Positions 1,873 through 39,849 of a stretch of 39,849 bases of DNA are shown here, piece by piece. The stretch is from Patescibacteria group bacterium (GTDB taxonomy: Bacteria > Patescibacteriota > Minisyncoccia > UBA6257 > 2-01-FULL-56-20), in NCBI GenBank assembly GCA_018971305.1, contig JAGXBC010000006.1, positions 1 to 39,849 of the forward strand, written 5' to 3'. The translations under genes and the position numbers were made by a program. The notes below the pieces were generated by a model that ran no database searches, was not told the origin of the DNA, and saw only the letters and a program-made list of their open reading frames with translations. How positions within the stretch are numbered: the stretch's first letter is position 1; every line of letters starts with the position of its first letter.

Positions 1873-3338
1873 TATTTTGTATAATATAGTTCGGGTTGTT
1901 GTTTTTCTGTCTTGGGAATCTCAATATCAATACCAAACTCTATTTTTAAGGAATTTATACGATCCTCATTCCAAACAACGCCCATAGATCCTCCGTGGAG
2001 AGTTCTGGTCTCAAGACCCATAGAACGAAGTTTATTAAGGATTGTTCGGCTCTGTGTATTGTATTTGCTATTAAGATTTCCTTCATTATATTTATTGGCA
2101 ATAAGCTGTCCTTTGATACAGCCGCTCTCTATCTGATCTTGGCAATAGAGAAGCGCCAGAATAATCTGACCGCTGGTACTATCAACCTTTTCCGCGAGAC
2201 GGCGTTTTTCAATCTCGTGTACCATTTTCTTAAATGCTTCTTCTCTGGCGGGATTTATATTCATTAGAACTTGATAAAGAGGCTGAGTAATGTCTCCAAG
2301 TCGTGATTTAGCTATTCGGCCAACGTCGGGCCACATATCTCCCATTGTAGAGGCTCTCCAAGCTGTCAGTTTCTCTTTAATCGGGAGCGCATCTTCTGGT
2401 TGCACCTTTAGTGTAAATTCTTTCTTTGAATTTACCATGATTATTGGAATTGCTCGAGTATCTAGTATTTCGTGTATCGTTTCGTTGGTAGCGAAAATTG
2501 TAGGGCCAAAAACTGTATAATAATCTGTATCTTGAAAAGCTCCCTTTTCTGGTCGATTTACTCGAGAAACGTCAATGCCTCGCTCCGGCCTATTGAGAAA
2601 CACATCTTCACTTCCTGCCTTTTCTATTTTTTCCCATAAATTCATCATGTCAAGAGCAAGCGTGGCGTCAATATGCGTACAATCACGTAAAACCTGTGCA
2701 TCGGTGAGGCTTATTTTACGAAGTCCGCGTCGTGCTATATAGATCATTGATTTAAGCATTCGCGACTTACCTTTTTCTGGCAAACCAAGAAAATAAATAA
2801 TAGGGCTAAAGTCAGCGCGTTCCATACAATATGTGTGAAAAGCCCATACCGTCATTACATCATATAGGCCTTCTTCGGGAAGCTCTGCTCGGCCGTGATA
2901 ATACTCTATAATTTGGTCATATAACTCTACGTCCCAATAAAAAATGACGTTCTTATTTATCGTCTTATCGTCACCATCGTCACCAATACCGTCTTTTTTG
3001 ATACTATTTGATACGCTTTTTTCTATTTTTGAATTTTTCCTTTCAAAAATATAATGGAGTACTTCTTCTTTACGTGGGAACAAAAGATTATGGGGTAATA
3101 AATTCTTTGGAGGAGGTTGATAGGTTCTATCATCTATAATAACCGAAGGAGAAACGGAAACACTTTTACTTGTCGGATCAAAAATGAGATATTCTAATTC
3201 GTGATTTTCGTTTTCCACCAAATCAACCAAATTAGGAAATGAGGCCTTATAGGAAATTTTGTTTTTTTCTTTTGATTCCTGTATAAGCTCTTTTTTTAGT
3301 TGCTCGTCTAATTGTTCATCAACCGTTTTTTTGACCAT
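1872..3338 (-). CDS. P-loop replicative helicase-like ATPase (phage primase-helicase type)
   Basis: A 488-residue protein with Walker A GLPEKGKS (residues 185-192), a Walker B-type TLALD ending at Asp230, and a sensor-like FGPTIFATNE near residues 277-286. The layout resembles SF3/D5-like or DUF3631-type helicases that accompany phage primases. The N-terminal 130 residues are charged and low in conservation, with an Asp-rich GDDGDD loop. The C-terminal 100 residues look like a winged-helix module. No primase active site is visible, so it probably works with host primase or polymerase. It overlaps the upstream gene by 20 bases and is the only recognisable replication enzyme in the genome. Confidence 0.75.
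   Translation of the reverse strand: MVKKTVDEQLDEQLKKELIQESKEKNKISYKASFPNLVDLVENENHELEYLIFDPTSKSVSVSPSVIIDDRTYQPPPKNLLPHNLLFPRKEEVLHYIFERKNSKIEKSVSNSIKKDGIGDDGDDKTINKNVIFYWDVELYDQIIEYYHGRAELPEEGLYDVMTVWAFHTYCMERADFSPIIYFLGLPEKGKSRMLKSMIYIARRGLRKISLTDAQVLRDCTHIDATLALDMMNLWEKIEKAGSEDVFLNRPERGIDVSRVNRPEKGAFQDTDYYTVFGPTIFATNETIHEILDTRAIPIIMVNSKKEFTLKVQPEDALPIKEKLTAWRASTMGDMWPDVGRIAKSRLGDITQPLYQVLMNINPAREEAFKKMVHEIEKRRLAEKVDSTSGQIILALLYCQDQIESGCIKGQLIANKYNEGNLNSKYNTQSRTILNKLRSMGLETRTLHGGSMGVVWNEDRINSLKIEFGIDIEIPKTEKQQPELYYTK
2966..2986. repeat. inverted copy of the iteron-region sequence inside the helicase gene
   Basis: These 21 bases are the exact reverse complement of 1817-1837. They encode the GDDGDD region of the helicase and contain two GTCACC units, mirroring the first two 9-mers of the 1819-1872 array. 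Confidence 0.8.
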
Positions 3339-3585
3339 AAAGAATTAAAAACTGCTCTACGTTTTTTATTATTTTTTTATCGGTTAAGGACTCTAATAAA
3401 GCATTGTTAAGACGATCTTTTTTAGAATATGAAAGAACTGAAAGTACTCCGTATTCGATTCCCTTTTTGCATAAAATCTGTATTTTCATTGCTATCTTTT
3501 CCAAATCAGAAACCCCTCCGCGTGACGACCCACTCAGTAAAGTGGACGCGGAGGGATTACTAACTTGGAAAAAGTGGGTCGTCAT
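3319..3585 (-). CDS. 88-residue hypothetical protein, first gene of the leftward arm
   Basis: Begins MTTHFFQVSNPSAS and ends in a helical region rich in Lys, Leu and Ile (DRLNNALLESLTDKKIIKNV). No catalytic or metal-binding motif is visible. It is the promoter-proximal gene of the leftward operon and overlaps the helicase start by 20 bases. Its first 24 codons contain a striking nested inverted-repeat structure that can cover the start codon, so its synthesis may be regulated at the RNA level. A helicase loader or replication accessory role is possible from position only. Confidence 0.65.
   Translation of the reverse strand: MTTHFFQVSNPSASTLLSGSSRGGVSDLEKIAMKIQILCKKGIEYGVLSVLSYSKKDRLNNALLESLTDKKIIKNVEQFLILYGQKNG
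3514..3584 (-). promoter_or_regulatory. start-codon-overlapping pseudoknot or alternative-hairpin element
   Basis: Four segments alternate. In the leftward mRNA, segment 1 (3584-3573, includes UG of the AUG) is a perfect 12-base complement of segment 3 (3534-3523). Segment 2 (3555-3546) is a perfect 10-base complement of segment 4 (3523-3514). The 1-2-3-4 order with 1:3 and 2:4 pairing is an H-type pseudoknot with almost no bases between segments 3 and 4. Segment 2:4 can alternatively form a hairpin extended by CCACT/AGTGG. The 1:3 helix would block the start codon. Confidence 0.55.
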
Positions 3586-3596
3586 AGTTATTTAAC

Positions 3597-3623
3597 AGTA
3601 TACCCATCATAACCTGTTGTCAA
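3597..3623 (-). promoter_or_regulatory. leftward promoter for the replication arm
   Basis: On the minus strand TTGACA (3623-3618) precedes TATACT (3602-3597) with a 15-base spacer, shorter than the optimal 17. The predicted start lies at about 3590, only a few bases before the ATG at 3585, so the leader is very short. It diverges from the rightward promoter at 3654-3682. Confidence 0.55.
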
Positions 3624-3653: not shown

Positions 3654-3689
3654 TTTACAAAACACTACAGGTAGTGTATAATAGGTGTT
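3654..3689 (+). promoter_or_regulatory. rightward promoter with two palindromic operator candidates
   Basis: TTTACA (3654-3659) and TATAAT (3677-3682) are 17 bases apart. Between them lies a perfect 7+7 palindrome with a 2-base centre (ACACTAC at 3662-3668, GTAGTGT at 3671-3677). AATAGGTGTT (3680-3689) overlaps the -10 and start and differs by one base from the AATAGGTATT sites at 1579 and 4310. The first codon is seven bases after the -10, predicting an almost leaderless message. The gene it drives encodes an HTH protein, so autoregulation is plausible. Confidence 0.65.
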
Positions 3690-3878
3690 ATGGAATACAA
3701 AGAATTACTTACAAAATTTCGTGAACGTCGGCAACAAATCAGAGAGGACTATAACAGAAAAGACGAAGCCGGCAAACGATTATATAATCAACGACAACTT
3801 GCGCAAAAGTATAATATTTCGCAAGCTCGTATTTGGATTATTCTTAATGAGCCTAAAAAACCCGCAAGCAAAAGGTAA
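3690..3878 (+). CDS. 62-residue helix-turn-helix DNA-binding protein
   Basis: A small basic protein with a helix-turn-helix pattern at about residues 33-54: RQLAQKYNISQARIWIILN, including the Ala-x-x-[Tyr] helix, the NIS turn and a recognition helix. The N-terminal 30 residues are charged and helical. It is the first gene of the rightward arm and is preceded immediately by palindromic sites, so it is the best candidate for the regulator that balances the two divergent arms. Its end overlaps the next gene by 32 bases. It could instead be a small recombination or replication accessory factor, but the operator-like context favours a repressor or activator. Confidence 0.7.
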   Translation: MEYKELLTKFRERRQQIREDYNRKDEAGKRLYNQRQLAQKYNISQARIWIILNEPKKPASKR

Positions 3879-4748: not shown

Positions 4749-4904
4749 ATGCACAGTGTTTGTGACCTAGGAAATATTACGTGGACAAGTCCATTTAATA
4801 GATATATGTGGGAGGGTGTTTGTGGAAAGGGCGGTACAGGAATAATAATATTGGTGATTGTTATTTTTTTGTTTCTAGTAGCTATTAAATCAGCAAGCAA
4901 ATAA
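4749..4904 (+). CDS. 51-residue membrane microprotein
   Basis: It begins MHSVCDLGNITW and contains one strongly hydrophobic helix near residues 31-46 (IIILVIVIFLFLVAI) with two cysteines in the N-terminal polar half. The start lies two bases after the previous stop, so it is probably translated by re-initiation. Function unknown. Confidence 0.6.
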   Translation: MHSVCDLGNITWTSPFNRYMWEGVCGKGGTGIIILVIVIFLFLVAIKSASK

Positions 4905-4912
4905 TAGTTATT

Positions 4913-4927: not shown

Positions 4928-5206
4928 ATGAAATTTTATCCGGCACAAGGTGTTTACATAGCAGAGCTTCTCGAAGATAAAGAAAAAATATTTGTCGACA
5001 CGCGGAAAACCCGTCTCATAAAAGGAAAAGTGGTCGCCATCAACCCTGTAGAAGTGACAGACTTTGGTATAGAAATCAAAACCCCTATTCGTGTCGGTGA
5101 CGTTGTATATTTTCTTAGCTACGAGGGAGACTACGATAATGCAAAAATAGACGGGAAAACATATTACGCAGTACTAAGAAAAGATCATCGATTCGTACTC
5201 AAATGA
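4928..5206 (+). CDS. groES: GroES-like co-chaperonin (Hsp10)
   Basis: The 92-residue length matches GroES (94-97). The beta-barrel landmarks align: Pro5 after a short strand, GKVVAINP at residues 33-40 (bacterial GEVLAVGNG), RVGDVVYF (bacterial VKVGDIVIF), then a glycine turn and KIDGKTYYAVLRKD near the end (bacterial KIDNEEVLIMSESD). The mobile loop is shorter than usual and lacks the GGIVL sequence, but a hydrophobic Ile21-Phe22-Val23 triplet occupies the place of the Ile-Val-Leu edge that binds GroEL. The stop overlaps the GroEL start as ATGA, which strongly supports a working pair. The closest functional precedents are phage co-chaperonins such as T4 gp31. The match is divergent but consistent along the whole length. 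Confidence 0.83.
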   Translation: MKFYPAQGVYIAELLEDKEKIFVDTRKTRLIKGKVVAINPVEVTDFGIEIKTPIRVGDVVYFLSYEGDYDNAKIDGKTYYAVLRKDHRFVLK

Positions 5207-6780
5207 AAAAAACAGAAATACTACATGGGCAGAAAGCGCGTGCAAAAATACTTGCTGGCGTCAATAAGATGGCCGATACGGTCACAATCACGTTAGGATT
5301 AAAAGGCCGAAACGTGGCAATCGCTATGCAGGACTTCCAGGGCAACATATACAAACGAGACAATATCCACGATGGTGTACGAGTAAGTAAAGCCATAGAC
5401 CTGCCGGACGAATTTGAGAACATGGGGGCGGCCATTATGCGTGAGGCTGCCGAGAAAACGGTCATGGAGGTCGGTGATGGCACAACGGTAACGATTCTCC
5501 TTAGCCAGGCACTTTATCAAGAGGCAAATAAAGCAATAGCCACAGGATCAGACCCTGTTGAGATACGGGAAGGATTAGAAAAAGCGGCTGACACGCTTGT
5601 AGGGGCTCTGGGAAAATATGCAATCCCTGTAAAATCGCACGATCAAGCTAAACATATCGCAACCATATCATGTCAGGATCCCCAAATTGGTGAAATGATA
5701 GCGGATACCCTTTATAAAATAGGCGCTGAAGGAGTCGCCACCATAGAGGAATCCAAAAATAATGAAACTACTGTTGACTATCAGACAGGTATGCAGCTTG
5801 AGAAAGGATATTACCATCCATACTTCATTACCGATCAGGAAACAGAATCGGCAGTATTGGAAAATCCTTATATCCTTCTTACTGATAAACACCTTATGAG
5901 CTTGGAGCCTCTCGAGAAGCTCTTGACCGAAGTATACAACCGTCATGCGGCCATCGTATTTGTGTGTGCGTCATTTTCAGGTGTAACGATTCCCCTCTTA
6001 TTGCAAAATAAAATGGGAGGAAAACTCAACTGTCTCGCTATACAAGCTCCCTCCTTTGGAGAAAACCAACAAGCAACCCTTGAGGATATCGCGACTCTTA
6101 CTGGCGGCAAGTTTATTGCAGAGGGTACCGGCATGGACTTAAAAGATATAACTCTCAAAGAATTAGGCCGTGCCGACTATGTGACAGCAAATAAAAACTC
6201 ATCATTGATTGTAGGTGGCAAAGGCAACACAAAAGATATAGAGCTACGGGTAGAAAAAATAAAAAGTCAGATTGAAACACAGGATGATGAGTTCAAAAAA
6301 GAAAAACTCCGTGAGCGATTGGGCAAACTCACGAACGGTATTGCAGTCATACACGTTGGCGGGTACACGGAGATTGAAATGAAAGACCGCAAAGAAAAAA
6401 TTATTGATGCTGTATCAGCTACGCGCGCCGCAATGAAAAAGGGGATAGTGCCAGGTGGAGAAATTATTTATCTCAAGCTCCGCGAAATGCTTGGTAACTC
6501 AATAGCTGAGCGTATTATGTATAAAGTTCTTGAGCGCCCATTTAATAAGCTGGTAGAAAATGCTGGTCTCGACAGCGGACAGATGCGTGAACGTCTACGA
6601 AATGTGACTACAAAAAATGCCGGTGTTGATCTTCGAGATAACAAAATAAAAGACATGGTGAAAGCGGGGATTATTGATCCCCTGTTAGTTGTAGAGAGCG
6701 CATTGTATAATAGCGTTAGTGTAGCAAATGCCTTAATACTCACTGAGGCTATTATCGTGCCAAAAGTTGACAAAAAGTGA
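5203..6780 (+). CDS. groEL: GroEL-like chaperonin (Hsp60)
   Basis: A full-length 525-residue group I chaperonin subunit. The ATPase signatures are present: TLGLKGRNV at residues 30-38, HDGVRV with Asp57 (E. coli Asp52), VGDGTT at 90-95 with Asp92 (Asp87), and IDAVSATRAA with Asp402 (Asp398), followed by GIVPGGE. The apical domain keeps GMQLEKGYYHPYF (aromatic residues that contact GroES and substrate) and the FGENQQATLEDIATLTGG helix region. Departures: the usual Pro33 of TLGPKG is Leu, the equatorial stem loop is about three residues longer, and the C-terminal Gly-Gly-Met tail is missing. It probably folds phage capsid or tail proteins in the host cytoplasm. It follows the GroES-like gene with an ATGA overlap and lies just before the packaging and head genes. 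Confidence 0.95.
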   Translation: MKKTEILHGQKARAKILAGVNKMADTVTITLGLKGRNVAIAMQDFQGNIYKRDNIHDGVRVSKAIDLPDEFENMGAAIMREAAEKTVMEVGDGTTVTILLSQALYQEANKAIATGSDPVEIREGLEKAADTLVGALGKYAIPVKSHDQAKHIATISCQDPQIGEMIADTLYKIGAEGVATIEESKNNETTVDYQTGMQLEKGYYHPYFITDQETESAVLENPYILLTDKHLMSLEPLEKLLTEVYNRHAAIVFVCASFSGVTIPLLLQNKMGGKLNCLAIQAPSFGENQQATLEDIATLTGGKFIAEGTGMDLKDITLKELGRADYVTANKNSSLIVGGKGNTKDIELRVEKIKSQIETQDDEFKKEKLRERLGKLTNGIAVIHVGGYTEIEMKDRKEKIIDAVSATRAAMKKGIVPGGEIIYLKLREMLGNSIAERIMYKVLERPFNKLVENAGLDSGQMRERLRNVTTKNAGVDLRDNKIKDMVKAGIIDPLLVVESALYNSVSVANALILTEAIIVPKVDKK

Positions 6781-6796: not shown

Positions 6797-6880
6797 ATGT
6801 TTGGTAAAAAAAGTTCAAAAGGATCGAAGAAAAGCTCAAAGCATTCTTCAAAAAAAAGTTCCAAAAAAAGCTCAAAGTAA
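6797..6880 (+). CDS. 27-residue Ser/Lys repeat peptide downstream of GroEL
   Basis: A tiny protein starting MFGKKSSKGSKK and then made of KSS and KKSS repeats only. It has an excellent GGAGGT site eight bases before the ATG, better than most genes here, and lies 16 bases after the GroEL stop. The composition (about half Lys, half Ser) is that of a disordered nucleic-acid-binding or phosphorylatable tail. Function unknown. It could be a DNA-condensing peptide or a chaperonin accessory; only the strong ribosome site argues that it is translated. Confidence 0.6.
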   Translation: MFGKKSSKGSKKSSKHSSKKSSKKSSK

Positions 6881-6883
6881 CCT

Positions 6884-7207
6884 ATGATTTGTCCTAGCTG
6901 CCACTTAGGCACAGCGCAGATTGACAAACGACTTGGTGTACTGCCGTGTCGTTTGTGCATTAAACGCCATAGAAACCTTCGGCGTTCTTCCTTACCCCCA
7001 GAGTTCACCAGCGATTCAATAAAACAACAGCGAAAAATGTATCGAAAAGACATTTTGCCTATCCATAATCGCGGCCAGCTTGATAAAGGTTGGCTTGACC
7101 GCTATGGTGCCAAAAAGGCAAAGCAACGAGGTTTTACTGATGAAGAAATAAAAAACGCTCGGTATGTATGGGACGGGGTAGATGAATACTACCCCTCACA
7201 CGTATGA
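6884..7207 (+). CDS. 107-residue zinc-finger hypothetical protein
   Basis: An N-terminal CPSC (residues 3-6) and CRLC (near residues 22-25) form a zinc knuckle or ribbon. A basic middle (KRHRNLRRSS) follows, then a helical C-terminus with GWLDRYGAKKAKQRGFTDEEI. The metal site plus basic patch suggest nucleic-acid binding. The stop overlaps the next start (ATGA). Position between chaperonin and terminase genes does not reveal its role. Confidence 0.7.
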   Translation: MICPSCHLGTAQIDKRLGVLPCRLCIKRHRNLRRSSLPPEFTSDSIKQQRKMYRKDILPIHNRGQLDKGWLDRYGAKKAKQRGFTDEEIKNARYVWDGVDEYYPSHV

Positions 7208-8596: not shown

Positions 8597-9938
8597 AATT
8601 GACACATTTTACCCAAGTGGGCCACACCCAGGTCAACAGAAAGTATTGGAAGCCCTGGATAATGGCGTGCGATTTGTACAACTGCGTGCTGGACGCAAAT
8701 GGCGTAAAACCTCACTTATCATTTCTTGGTTATTCGAAAAGGCATTTGAAACAGGACTCGTCTGTCCGTATATTGCACCAAACCGCGTGCAAGCCAAAAA
8801 CATTGCATGGGATGACCATATCAATAGACTCTTAAACCACTTCACTGCACAAGGGCTTCCCTACAAAGCAAATGAAAGCGAACTATCAATTACATTTCCC
8901 AATGGCGGCAAAGTGCAGCTTCTTGGCGTAGAAAACAAAAACTCTCTTCGTGGTATATCAAACTGGGGGGCAGTGGGCGGTGATGAGTATGACGACTGGG
9001 AAGAAGATATTTACTCTGATATTATCCGGCCCAACCTAATTACCTATCATGCACCAATTATCTTAGGTGGTACGCCCAATGGGTTTCGAAACCTCTACCA
9101 TATTGAAAACATGAAGGATGAGAAAGGCAGTCACATATTCCAATCATTTCACTTTACGACCATGGACAACCCAGACATTCCCAAAGAAGAACTCGCAAGC
9201 CTTATTAGCGAATATAAATCCATGGGCATGGGCTCCTATCGACAGGAAATACTGGCCGAGTACGAAAAGCCCGAGGGCGTGGTATATGACGAGTGGGACA
9301 TGAAGCAATATATACCCTTCTGGTATGACGAAAACCTGCCGCTGCACCTGTCGTGGGACTTCGGGGTAAATGACCCCACGGTCGTCCTGTTTATACAGCC
9401 CAACGGCAGCGAGCTGCGTATAGTGGATTACATCGAGGCGTCCAATGCAAACTTAGAGTACTTTGTCGAGGAGATAGATAAGAAGGGATACAAAAAACCA
9501 TCGTTCGAAGCCGGCGACATTTCGGGCCGGGCGCGGTCGCTCATTACAGGGAAAAGCCCCATATCGCTGCTGCGCGAGCTGGGCCACGATGTACGCAGTA
9601 TGCCTATACCCGATATAGAACAGCAGATACGCAACGCCCATACCTACGTCCCGAACCTGTGGGTATCAAGTGCAAAGGCCGAACGCTTCCGCGACTGCAT
9701 ACTGAACTACCACTACCCGGAGAAGTCGACCACACTGGTAAACCAAGACAACGAACAACCAGTCCACGACGAGTACAGCCATGCCCTCCGGGCGTTCGAG
9801 TACTACTGCTGGAACCTCAAGCACGGGAGAGTGGGGGCTGTGCATGAACGGCTGGCAGATAAGCACTCACCCAGCCCGAGCGCCGAGTTCTTTAGGGGGC
9901 AGCAGGTCGGGCTGGATATAGATAAGTTTAAGCATTGA
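8577..9938 (+). CDS. terL: terminase large subunit (packaging ATPase and nuclease)
   Basis: The 453-residue motor protein has an N-terminal ATPase and a C-terminal RNase H-like nuclease. Walker A is AGRKWRKTS (residues 38-46), unusual in having Arg where the last Gly of GKT normally stands. Walker B is GGDEYDDW (Asp136, Glu137), and the coupling motif is GGTPNG. Nuclease acidic residues include Asp261 in WDFGVNDP, the GDISG segment and DEYSHALRA near the C-terminus. It starts with GTG inside terS. Base and codon use change near 9240 (about residue 222): CTG, GCG and CGC codons become common in the nuclease half. The stop is directly followed by a tRNA gene. Confidence 0.93.
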   Translation: MVKRKIEIDTFYPSGPHPGQQKVLEALDNGVRFVQLRAGRKWRKTSLIISWLFEKAFETGLVCPYIAPNRVQAKNIAWDDHINRLLNHFTAQGLPYKANESELSITFPNGGKVQLLGVENKNSLRGISNWGAVGGDEYDDWEEDIYSDIIRPNLITYHAPIILGGTPNGFRNLYHIENMKDEKGSHIFQSFHFTTMDNPDIPKEELASLISEYKSMGMGSYRQEILAEYEKPEGVVYDEWDMKQYIPFWYDENLPLHLSWDFGVNDPTVVLFIQPNGSELRIVDYIEASNANLEYFVEEIDKKGYKKPSFEAGDISGRARSLITGKSPISLLRELGHDVRSMPIPDIEQQIRNAHTYVPNLWVSSAKAERFRDCILNYHYPEKSTTLVNQDNEQPVHDEYSHALRAFEYYCWNLKHGRVGAVHERLADKHSPSPSAEFFRGQQVGLDIDKFKH

Positions 9939-10011
9939 TCCCGCGTAGCACATTTGGTCGTGCAACGTCCCGTTAAGGCGGAGAACGGAGGTTCGAGTCC
10001 TCCCGCGGGAG
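9939..10011 (+). tRNA. tRNA-Asn (anticodon GUU)
   Basis: A 73-base cloverleaf: perfect 7-bp acceptor stem (TCCCGCG/CGCGGGA), 4-bp D stem (GCAC/GTGC) with GG in its loop, a weak anticodon stem (four of five pairs, one G-U), loop CCGTTAA with anticodon GTT, 5-base variable loop, and a perfect T stem with TTCGAGT. Discriminator base is G, as expected for Asn. CCA is not encoded. Position 33 is C where U is nearly universal, so decoding may be impaired. It begins at the base after the terL stop. Confidence 0.85.
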
Positions 10012-10027
10012 CACTATAGAGATTGTC

Positions 10028-39550: not shown

Positions 39551-39849
39551 CTATTCATCTTTCGCCTCACGAATCTGAATGAATATGTTTACTCTGACAC
39601 CCTTGATTTTTACGCCGGATTGATAGAGTTTCCGCAGCTTCTCGCTGTCCGCGACGGTTTTTACGGCCCCTAGCTCTTTCGCCTTTGAGAATGTCACATC
39701 AGTCACGATTATCCGCTTGACCTGCGAGAGAAAATGCCCATCCACCCTCATGCCGGTCACTTTCATTTTAATGAGCCGATCCCGCAATTCATCATTGACG
39801 ACCGACTGTGCAGCGGCGATTTCGTCCTTTTCCGACTTTAACTGCATCG
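39551..39849 (-). CDS. small coiled-coil recombination-module protein (C-terminal part; starts at 204 across the join)
   Basis: The C-terminal part of the 117-residue protein described at 1-204. Bases 39701-39849 duplicate 1-149. Across the real circular join the frame is continuous, which confirms circularity. This half is beta-rich with VTGMRVDGHFLSQVKRI and the closing GVRVNIFIQIREAKDE. The HNH gene follows after a 40-base gap holding its promoter. Confidence 0.8.
   Translation of the reverse strand, partial: MQLKSEKDEIAAAQSVVNDELRDRLIKMKVTGMRVDGHFLSQVKRIIVTDVTFSKAKELGAVKTVADSEKLRKLYQSGVKIKGVRVNIFIQIREAKDE
39701..39849. repeat. terminal redundancy of the contig (copy 2)
   Basis: Exact copy of bases 1-149. 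Within it the coiled-coil gene is interrupted only by the linear display. Confidence 0.95.

Follow-up and report, generated by a model that had tools for sequence, protein, structure and literature searches.

Interleaved pairings in the leader of a phage operon, a candidate attenuator of early replication genes

The head of the leftward operon in the phage genome studied here carries two perfect, interleaved pairings. The question raised by this locus is whether they control the genes behind them, at which level, and whether a start codon is hidden in the structure. To our knowledge, how phages of ultra-small (CPR-type) bacteria control their genes has hardly been described.

The leader of the leftward operon

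The window, i.e., the whole stretch of 39,849 bp that was analysed, has a 149-bp exact direct terminal repeat (1-149 and 39701-39849), and is therefore a complete or circularly assembled phage genome. A tailed-phage gene set was found, i.e., terminase, portal, capsid, endolysin, Rad52-like, and chaperonin genes. The contig was binned with a 0.96-Mb genome. Within the genome collection, a relative of its terminase was traced to a Candidatus Moraniibacteriota assembly, which is in line with a CPR/Patescibacteria host for the phage.

The gene clusters diverge at about 3.6 kb. The rightward cluster encodes an HTH protein, a resolvase-like nuclease, GroES/EL, and late genes, and the leftward cluster encodes a 56-aa ORF, a 488-aa P-loop protein, and a Rad52-like protein. 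The phage-borne GroES-like and GroEL genes are placed at 4928-6780 (+), and GroEL likewise precedes terminase in the relative L004. The first base of a tRNA-Asn gene (9939-10012, +) directly follows the terminase stop codon. The 56-aa ORF showed no Pfam family above cut-off. The 488-aa protein gave no Pfam or PHROG match in profile searches, and distant homologues were found in other genomes of the same class. Judged from its motif, it is probably a replication helicase/primase-type ATPase. The features of the control region are as follows.

3654..3682, + strand: divergent promoter TTTACA-17-TATAAT, outside the RNA element, with a dyad at 3662-3677
3618..3623, - strand: predicted -35 box TTGACA of the leftward early/replication promoter, the top-scoring sense promoter beside the element
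3597..3602, - strand: predicted -10 box TATACT, with transcription start expected near 3588-3592
3583..3585, - strand: 5'-proximal AUG, its UG within A, opening an 88-aa frame across the element
3573..3584, - strand: segment A, UGACGACCCACU, perfect over 12 bp with A' (flank-shuffle p = 0.001)
3546..3573, - strand: S2 5' arm, i.e., core 3546-3555 and outer part 3556-3573
3541..3545, - strand: segment D (CCACU), repeating the 3' end of A and pairing with the initial 5 nt of A'
3523..3534, - strand: segment A', AGUGGGUCGUCA, in the S2 loop, immediately 5' of the 3' arm
3496..3523, - strand: S2 3' arm, with purine-rich UUGGAAAAG at its end
3319..3489, - strand: first ORF from the proposed true start, 56 aa
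1872..3338, - strand: second gene of the operon, 488 aa, P-loop GLPEKGKSR

The perfect 12-bp pairing (A:A') joins 3523-3534 with 3573-3584, and the perfect 10-bp pairing of 3514-3523 with 3546-3555 is interleaved with it. Besides A:A', the whole window has no perfect inverted repeat of 12 bp within 90 nt, and only one interleaved pair with both arms of at least 9 bp was found in the 39.8 kb. By 200 dinucleotide shuffles, 0.125 twelve-bp repeats and 0.02 interleaved pairs were expected per 40 kb, which rules out chance pairing. The original prediction, which described both pairings and held them improbable by chance, was correct in this respect. The 10-bp helix, however, is the core of a longer stem, S2, of 28 bp (3496-3523 with 3546-3573 in the leftward RNA), with four G-U pairs and one U-U mismatch.

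The S2 hairpin (3496-3573) was calculated at -47 kcal/mol, and the 121-nt leader had an MFE of -48.9 kcal/mol (z = -6.7). Because of the G-U pairs in S2, the leftward RNA strand pairs better, with a pairing score of 56 for the sense strand vs 39 for the antisense strand. In the fold of the leftward strand, the small hairpin D:D' caps S2, and the remaining part of A' (GUCGUC) is bulged. The D-type arrangement is also present in two other leaders described below, L026 and L023, and the L026 copy reads CCCUU where that of the window reads CCACU. The S2 stem of the window is not followed by a T-run. Rfam 15, riboswitches included, gave nothing above gathering threshold for the elements of the window, L026, L023, L014, and L118, and its only match in the window is a tRNA.

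Two interleaved helices, which define an H-type pseudoknot, are present by sequence complementarity. As a stable end state, the pseudoknot first proposed is not supported, because the nested hairpin is so stable and A:A' excludes the full stem. Since A adjoins the stem base and A' lies at the stem top, A:A' and full S2 would be mutually exclusive in the window, and their formation at once is sterically unlikely.

The pairing had been placed inside a coding region, with the hidden AUG (3585) as the start of the gene. The 32 codons of 3490-3585 score below 99.5% of 32-codon windows from this phage's genes. Therefore, the element is probably non-coding and lies outside the coding region, and codon usage rules out coding constraint as the main cause of the pairing. 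An in-frame ATG at 3487-3489 lies 6 nt past the S2 end. It is probably the likelier start, as codon usage is against 3585 and the hairpin abuts this ATG. UUGGAAAAG is a possible ribosome-binding site. The leftward promoter reads TTGACA-15-TATACT, and is imperfect because the 15-nt spacer is short. It places the predicted transcription start of the window near 3590, a few nucleotides before A. Given this position and the probable start codon at 3487-3489, the simplest reading is that the element constitutes the 5' leader and that A begins it.

Recurrence in other phages and mobile elements

Relatives were chosen via terminase (53-66% identity), and none was similar in element sequence. No close relatives were found among viral contigs via helicase, GroEL, or nuclease, no second copy of the element sequence in its own genome, and no near-identical element in phage records. 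A long-stem scan found stems in several terminase relatives, mostly immediately 5' of start codons. When pairing between loop and flank was checked, the interleaving was found again with unrelated letters, and A' always adjoined the 3' arm.

L023: A/A' = UCUUAAAACA/UGUUUUAAGA
L014: A/A' = UUAAAGGG/CCCUUUAA
L068: A/A' = GGUAAAGGUAG/CUACCUUACC
L049: A/A' = UGAUAUAAUUAG/CUAAUUAUAUUA

L026, L006, and L090 were added next. L118 was retrieved by protein alone, i.e., by a helicase 59% identical to that of L026, and its structure was disregarded in the choice. Its leader consists of A UGAUUGACAC, the S2 arms CCCCUAGCGUGU/GCGCGCUAGGGG, and A' GUGUCAAUCA, then UUUUUU and AUG. L026 and L118 are the closest pair of homologous operons, and in this prospective check the letters differed and both pairings were retained. 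A broken pairing beside a kept protein, which had been named as the finding that would count against the structure, is thus not what the closest pair presents. No such element was seen in the leader region of G444, whose helicase is a more remote homologue (37% identical). Regions around helicase, terminase, and recombinase-bearing mobile loci of other genomes gave L143, L138, L146 (two), L147, and L139. A final viral scan gave no additional member.

The order A, S2 5' arm, A', S2 3' arm, ATG is therefore shared by about 15 leaders of unrelated sequence, i.e., the window, L026, L118, L023, L014, L068/L069, L049, L006, L090, L143, L138, L146 (two), L147, and L139. They were found in CPR-like genomes, in related phages and mobile elements. 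In 15/15, the distance from the end of S2 to the ATG is 0-25 nt. S2 pairing is stronger on the transcribed strand in 14 members, with one tie, and this strand asymmetry indicates RNA-level selection on S2. A T-run resembling that of an intrinsic terminator follows S2 in 9/15 and is absent in six, the window phage included. In the window, L026, and L006, the predicted transcription start is within a few nucleotides of A. The linker from A to S2 measures 24-36 nt in four members (L026, L090, L146+, and L139) and 25 nt in L118. A may be outside the transcript in L146+ and L049, because A and S2 are separated by a strong extended -10 in the former and A overlaps a TATAAT in the latter. The linker of L026 contains the hairpin AAAAAAGCCTTTGGCTTTTG, which is repeated in phage G430 (L026 11578-11602, 13271-13296, and 14331-14374; L025 1905-1948) and is possibly a repeated terminator of that phage.

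Mostly, the leaders precede primase, helicase, initiator, or serine-recombinase genes, and the rule across members is that the first-expressed replication or recombination genes lie downstream.

L090 and L068: Prim-Pol and DnaB_C
L049: VapE/NrS-1-type primase-helicase
L026, L118, and L143: AAA_25 helicase
L118: CHC2 primase
L014: DnaB_C
L146: serine recombinases

In L146, one mobile locus holds two serine recombinase genes with separate interleaved leaders (6879-6930, -, and 9428-9481, +), whose sequences differ.

The A:A' pairing was compared with shuffles of the 5' flank, and p was 0.001 for the window, 0.002 for L023, 0.016 for L014, 0.004 for L068, 0.002 for L049, and 0.016 for L006. Six further long stems gave no A:A' signal by the same shuffle. 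A descriptor search (ATG nearby, score of at least 55) of 1.1 Mb of phage loci returned eight elements vs none in the reversed control, and none were returned from 795 kb of host chromosome. Reversed sequence preserves pseudoknots, so true members reappear in it and only ATG-linked counts are informative. Among 56 hairpins before ATG in mobile loci, chosen regardless of A:A', ten had A:A' at p<0.02 where 1.1 were expected; without the window the count is 9/55, and in chromosomal loci it is 0/36.

Several candidates were left out. The long hairpins of L061 and L015, and that of phage G431 (L004 1625-1730, an RNA hairpin after a tyrosine integrase and before a small ORF), lack A:A'. L105 2309-2378, with SD and AUG inside the 3' arm, was not counted (A:A' p = 0.13). 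L091 12648-12686 has a good A:A' and no gene immediately downstream. L079 and L108 are high in GC and were excluded as noise. In the window itself, a weak, AT-rich look-alike at 4853-4912 (+), 15 nt before the GroES start, is probably due to chance.

Candidate mechanism and alternatives

The architecture is well supported, and its function we infer. The leader may be a cis-acting attenuator of the early replication operon, in which A:A' transiently opposes a terminator or a start-masking hairpin; a probability of roughly 50% is given to this reading. The translation switch of the original prediction survives in part. An RNA-level interleaved structure at the head of the leftward operon is present, and it was kept through full sequence replacement in other phages; probably it switches either translation or transcription. 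Nothing points to a sensor of temperature or of a ligand, as no sequence is conserved.

The attenuator is suggested by the folding of growing chains. In the window, A:A' is the best fold once A' has been made, with an MFE of -22.7 vs -11.5 kcal/mol without A pairing, and nested S2 replaces it after about 8 nt of the 3' arm. The same switch was seen in six of the seven members first tested, after about 8-19 nt of the 3' arm, and in L014 only if the leader begins close to A. A transient nascent fold displaced by a final fold, i.e., the feature of an MS2-type kinetic window, was found by growing-chain MFE alone.

During RNA synthesis, A would pair with A' in the S2 loop and would be displaced when the S2 3' arm emerges. 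A:A' would trap the S2 5' arm in a closed loop tied to A, so that at most the apical core of S2 could pair, forming a pseudoknot. The basal half of S2 beside the start codon would stay open, and ribosomes could load. In members with a T-run, A:A' would let RNA polymerase escape the terminator. Once S2 is zipped to its base, the ribosome site would be closed, or transcription would end. A:A' would thus be the opponent of the basal S2 half, which adjoins the start codon or the T-run. Through the leader, the replication genes would receive just a fraction of the transcripts, or just the young ones. The balance may be tipped by polymerase speed, by a protein, by a trans RNA, or by the arrival of a ribosome at the near-leaderless 5' AUG.

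Because the T-run is found in only part of the members, a single architecture is proposed whose output would be either termination or masking of the start. As S2 of the window phage lacks it, control would be at translation there. With A directly at the foot of a stem of 22-32 bp, pairing of A with A' would preclude pairing of the stem base, because A' lies at the far stem end. In the members with linkers of about 24-36 nt, L118 among them, A:A' and the whole S2 could coexist and need not compete. Such members with long linkers and short stems could form a complete pseudoknot instead, and the sign of control may differ. These long linkers count against the attenuator, as do the possible position of A outside the transcript in L146+ and L049, stems without A:A', the G444 operon, the six leaders without T-run (no single output fits all), and the 15-nt promoter spacer of the window.

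Among the alternatives, it is possible, though doubtful, that the long hairpin works alone. It would mask the ribosome site, end transcription, or serve as an RNase III processing or 5'-stability stem, as in the lambda N leader, and A:A' would be a by-product. S2 is by far the most stable element and abuts the start codon, and an RNase III gene is present in the host genome. Long stems without A:A' also stand before starts in several related phages (L006 5123, L048, and L056). However, among the hairpins before ATG, A:A' is well above chance in mobile loci and absent from the chromosomal set. It is also constant in its topological place, and it was kept by full replacement between L026 and L118.

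The divergence of sequence on a constant frame is the behaviour of specificity determinants, and it would suit a trans-acting RNA in immunity or copy control. An attenuated leader or an antisense RNA would pair via A or A' with the nascent leader and drive termination, with its own specificity in each phage, in the manner of P4 CI RNA or pT181. Attenuated RNAs of about 60-150 nt are expected wherever S2 is a terminator, and replication genes lie downstream, as in pT181 and pIP501. This explanation is nevertheless unlikely. No good antisense promoter lies beside the elements (best antisense 9.0-9.9 vs sense 10.0-12.0), the better antisense matches in the window and L006 sit upstream and read away from the element, and the window sequence has no second copy in its genome.

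Hiding of the 5'-proximal AUG may still matter, because an AUG stands at the 5' edge of A in 6/15 members (window, L026, L118, L049, L006, and L146+). By start-site choice, A:A' would hide an AUG at or near the transcript 5' end, and a leaderless upstream start would be weighed against the start behind S2. The two starts of the window share a frame, the upstream frame of L026 ends at an ATGA overlap of the main gene, and that of L118 ends just beyond the main start. However, the AUG is missing from this edge in the nine other members, the upstream frame in L006 and L049 stops after 2-4 codons, and the N-terminal extension in the window does not look coding, which makes this choice improbable.

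A DNA element, i.e., a replication origin, a protein-bound operator pair, or a cruciform recombination site, would agree with the place between divergent promoters and beside replication genes in the window, the nearly pure Watson-Crick A:A', and an A maybe upstream of the transcript in L146+ and L049, but it is scarcely probable given the strand asymmetry of S2, its position directly 5' of start codons, and a window phage with no integrase among its annotated ORFs, hence no case for an att site, and only noise in place of a dif/Xer site.

From its recurrence with unrelated letters, this leader type is probably a widespread, undescribed on/off attenuator. It would be a common decision point of CPR-type phages and mobile elements, before replication and recombinase genes. 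More tentatively, a general, sequence-free principle may be at work in phages and mobile elements of CPR-like bacteria. The leader 5' end would pair with the loop of a hairpin that terminates transcription or masks the start, and so form a private RNA switch, possibly with RNA immunity or copy-control specificity, over replication or recombination genes. A leader design of topology only escapes sequence or covariance-model searches, as the lack of an Rfam match illustrates. This suggests that descriptors of interleaved pairing and start codon may find a class of attenuators missed by homology methods.

Relation to known leaders

No published description of such a leader was found in the literature searched, most of it outside subscription papers. 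The closest known logic is the attenuator of the pT181/pIP501 rep leaders, in which a pre-emptor pairs with the terminator 5' arm and a countertranscript tips the balance (PMC5703833). In both cases, a replication-gene leader has a stable terminator-like stem just before the start codon, overlapping the ribosome site, and an alternative upstream pairing that pre-empts the stem (PMC5703833). Unlike those leaders, A pairs here with the loop segment A', which is interleaved with the stem and outside the S2 arms, and no suitably placed antisense promoter was prominent. The stem and its position before a replication gene agree, whereas the T-run is present in nine of the 15 and not in the window. 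The element was not classed with pT181/pIP501, because neither a countertranscript nor a pre-emptor pairing with an arm of the stem was found when both were looked for.

In the MS2 maturation-gene leader and the metastable hairpins of hok/aapA3, a transient nascent structure gives a time window for translation before the stable closed fold forms, and the leader described here would be similar in this respect (PMC6733600). Those are single cases of conserved sequence before a maturation or toxin gene, whereas the present leader belongs to a replication operon of a dsDNA phage, has many members, and shares topology alone. The timP leader adopts either of two folds that exclude each other, one of them containing a pseudoknot, and access to the ribosome site depends on which is formed; this resembles the folds proposed here (PMC11228461). 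However, timP has a partner sRNA and conserved sequence, and neither was seen here.

In the immunity RNAs of phage P4 (CI RNA) and P1 (c4 RNA), short complementary segments lie in the leader of a replication or lytic operon, and termination is premature. The present leader likewise has short complementary segments ahead of a replication operon, and termination may be premature. P4 requires a processed trans RNA, which for the leader here would be hypothetical. In lambda, a large RNase III hairpin in the N leader precedes the opening gene of the leftward early operon, and a large hairpin is similarly placed ahead of the first leftward early gene in the window. We know of no counterpart of A:A' in the lambda N leader.

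On the other side of the divergence point, ACACTACAGGTAGTGT (3662-3677) forms a perfect 16-bp dyad between the boxes of the strong rightward promoter. It is likely an operator of the divergent control region, perhaps serving the 62-aa HTH protein encoded at 3690.
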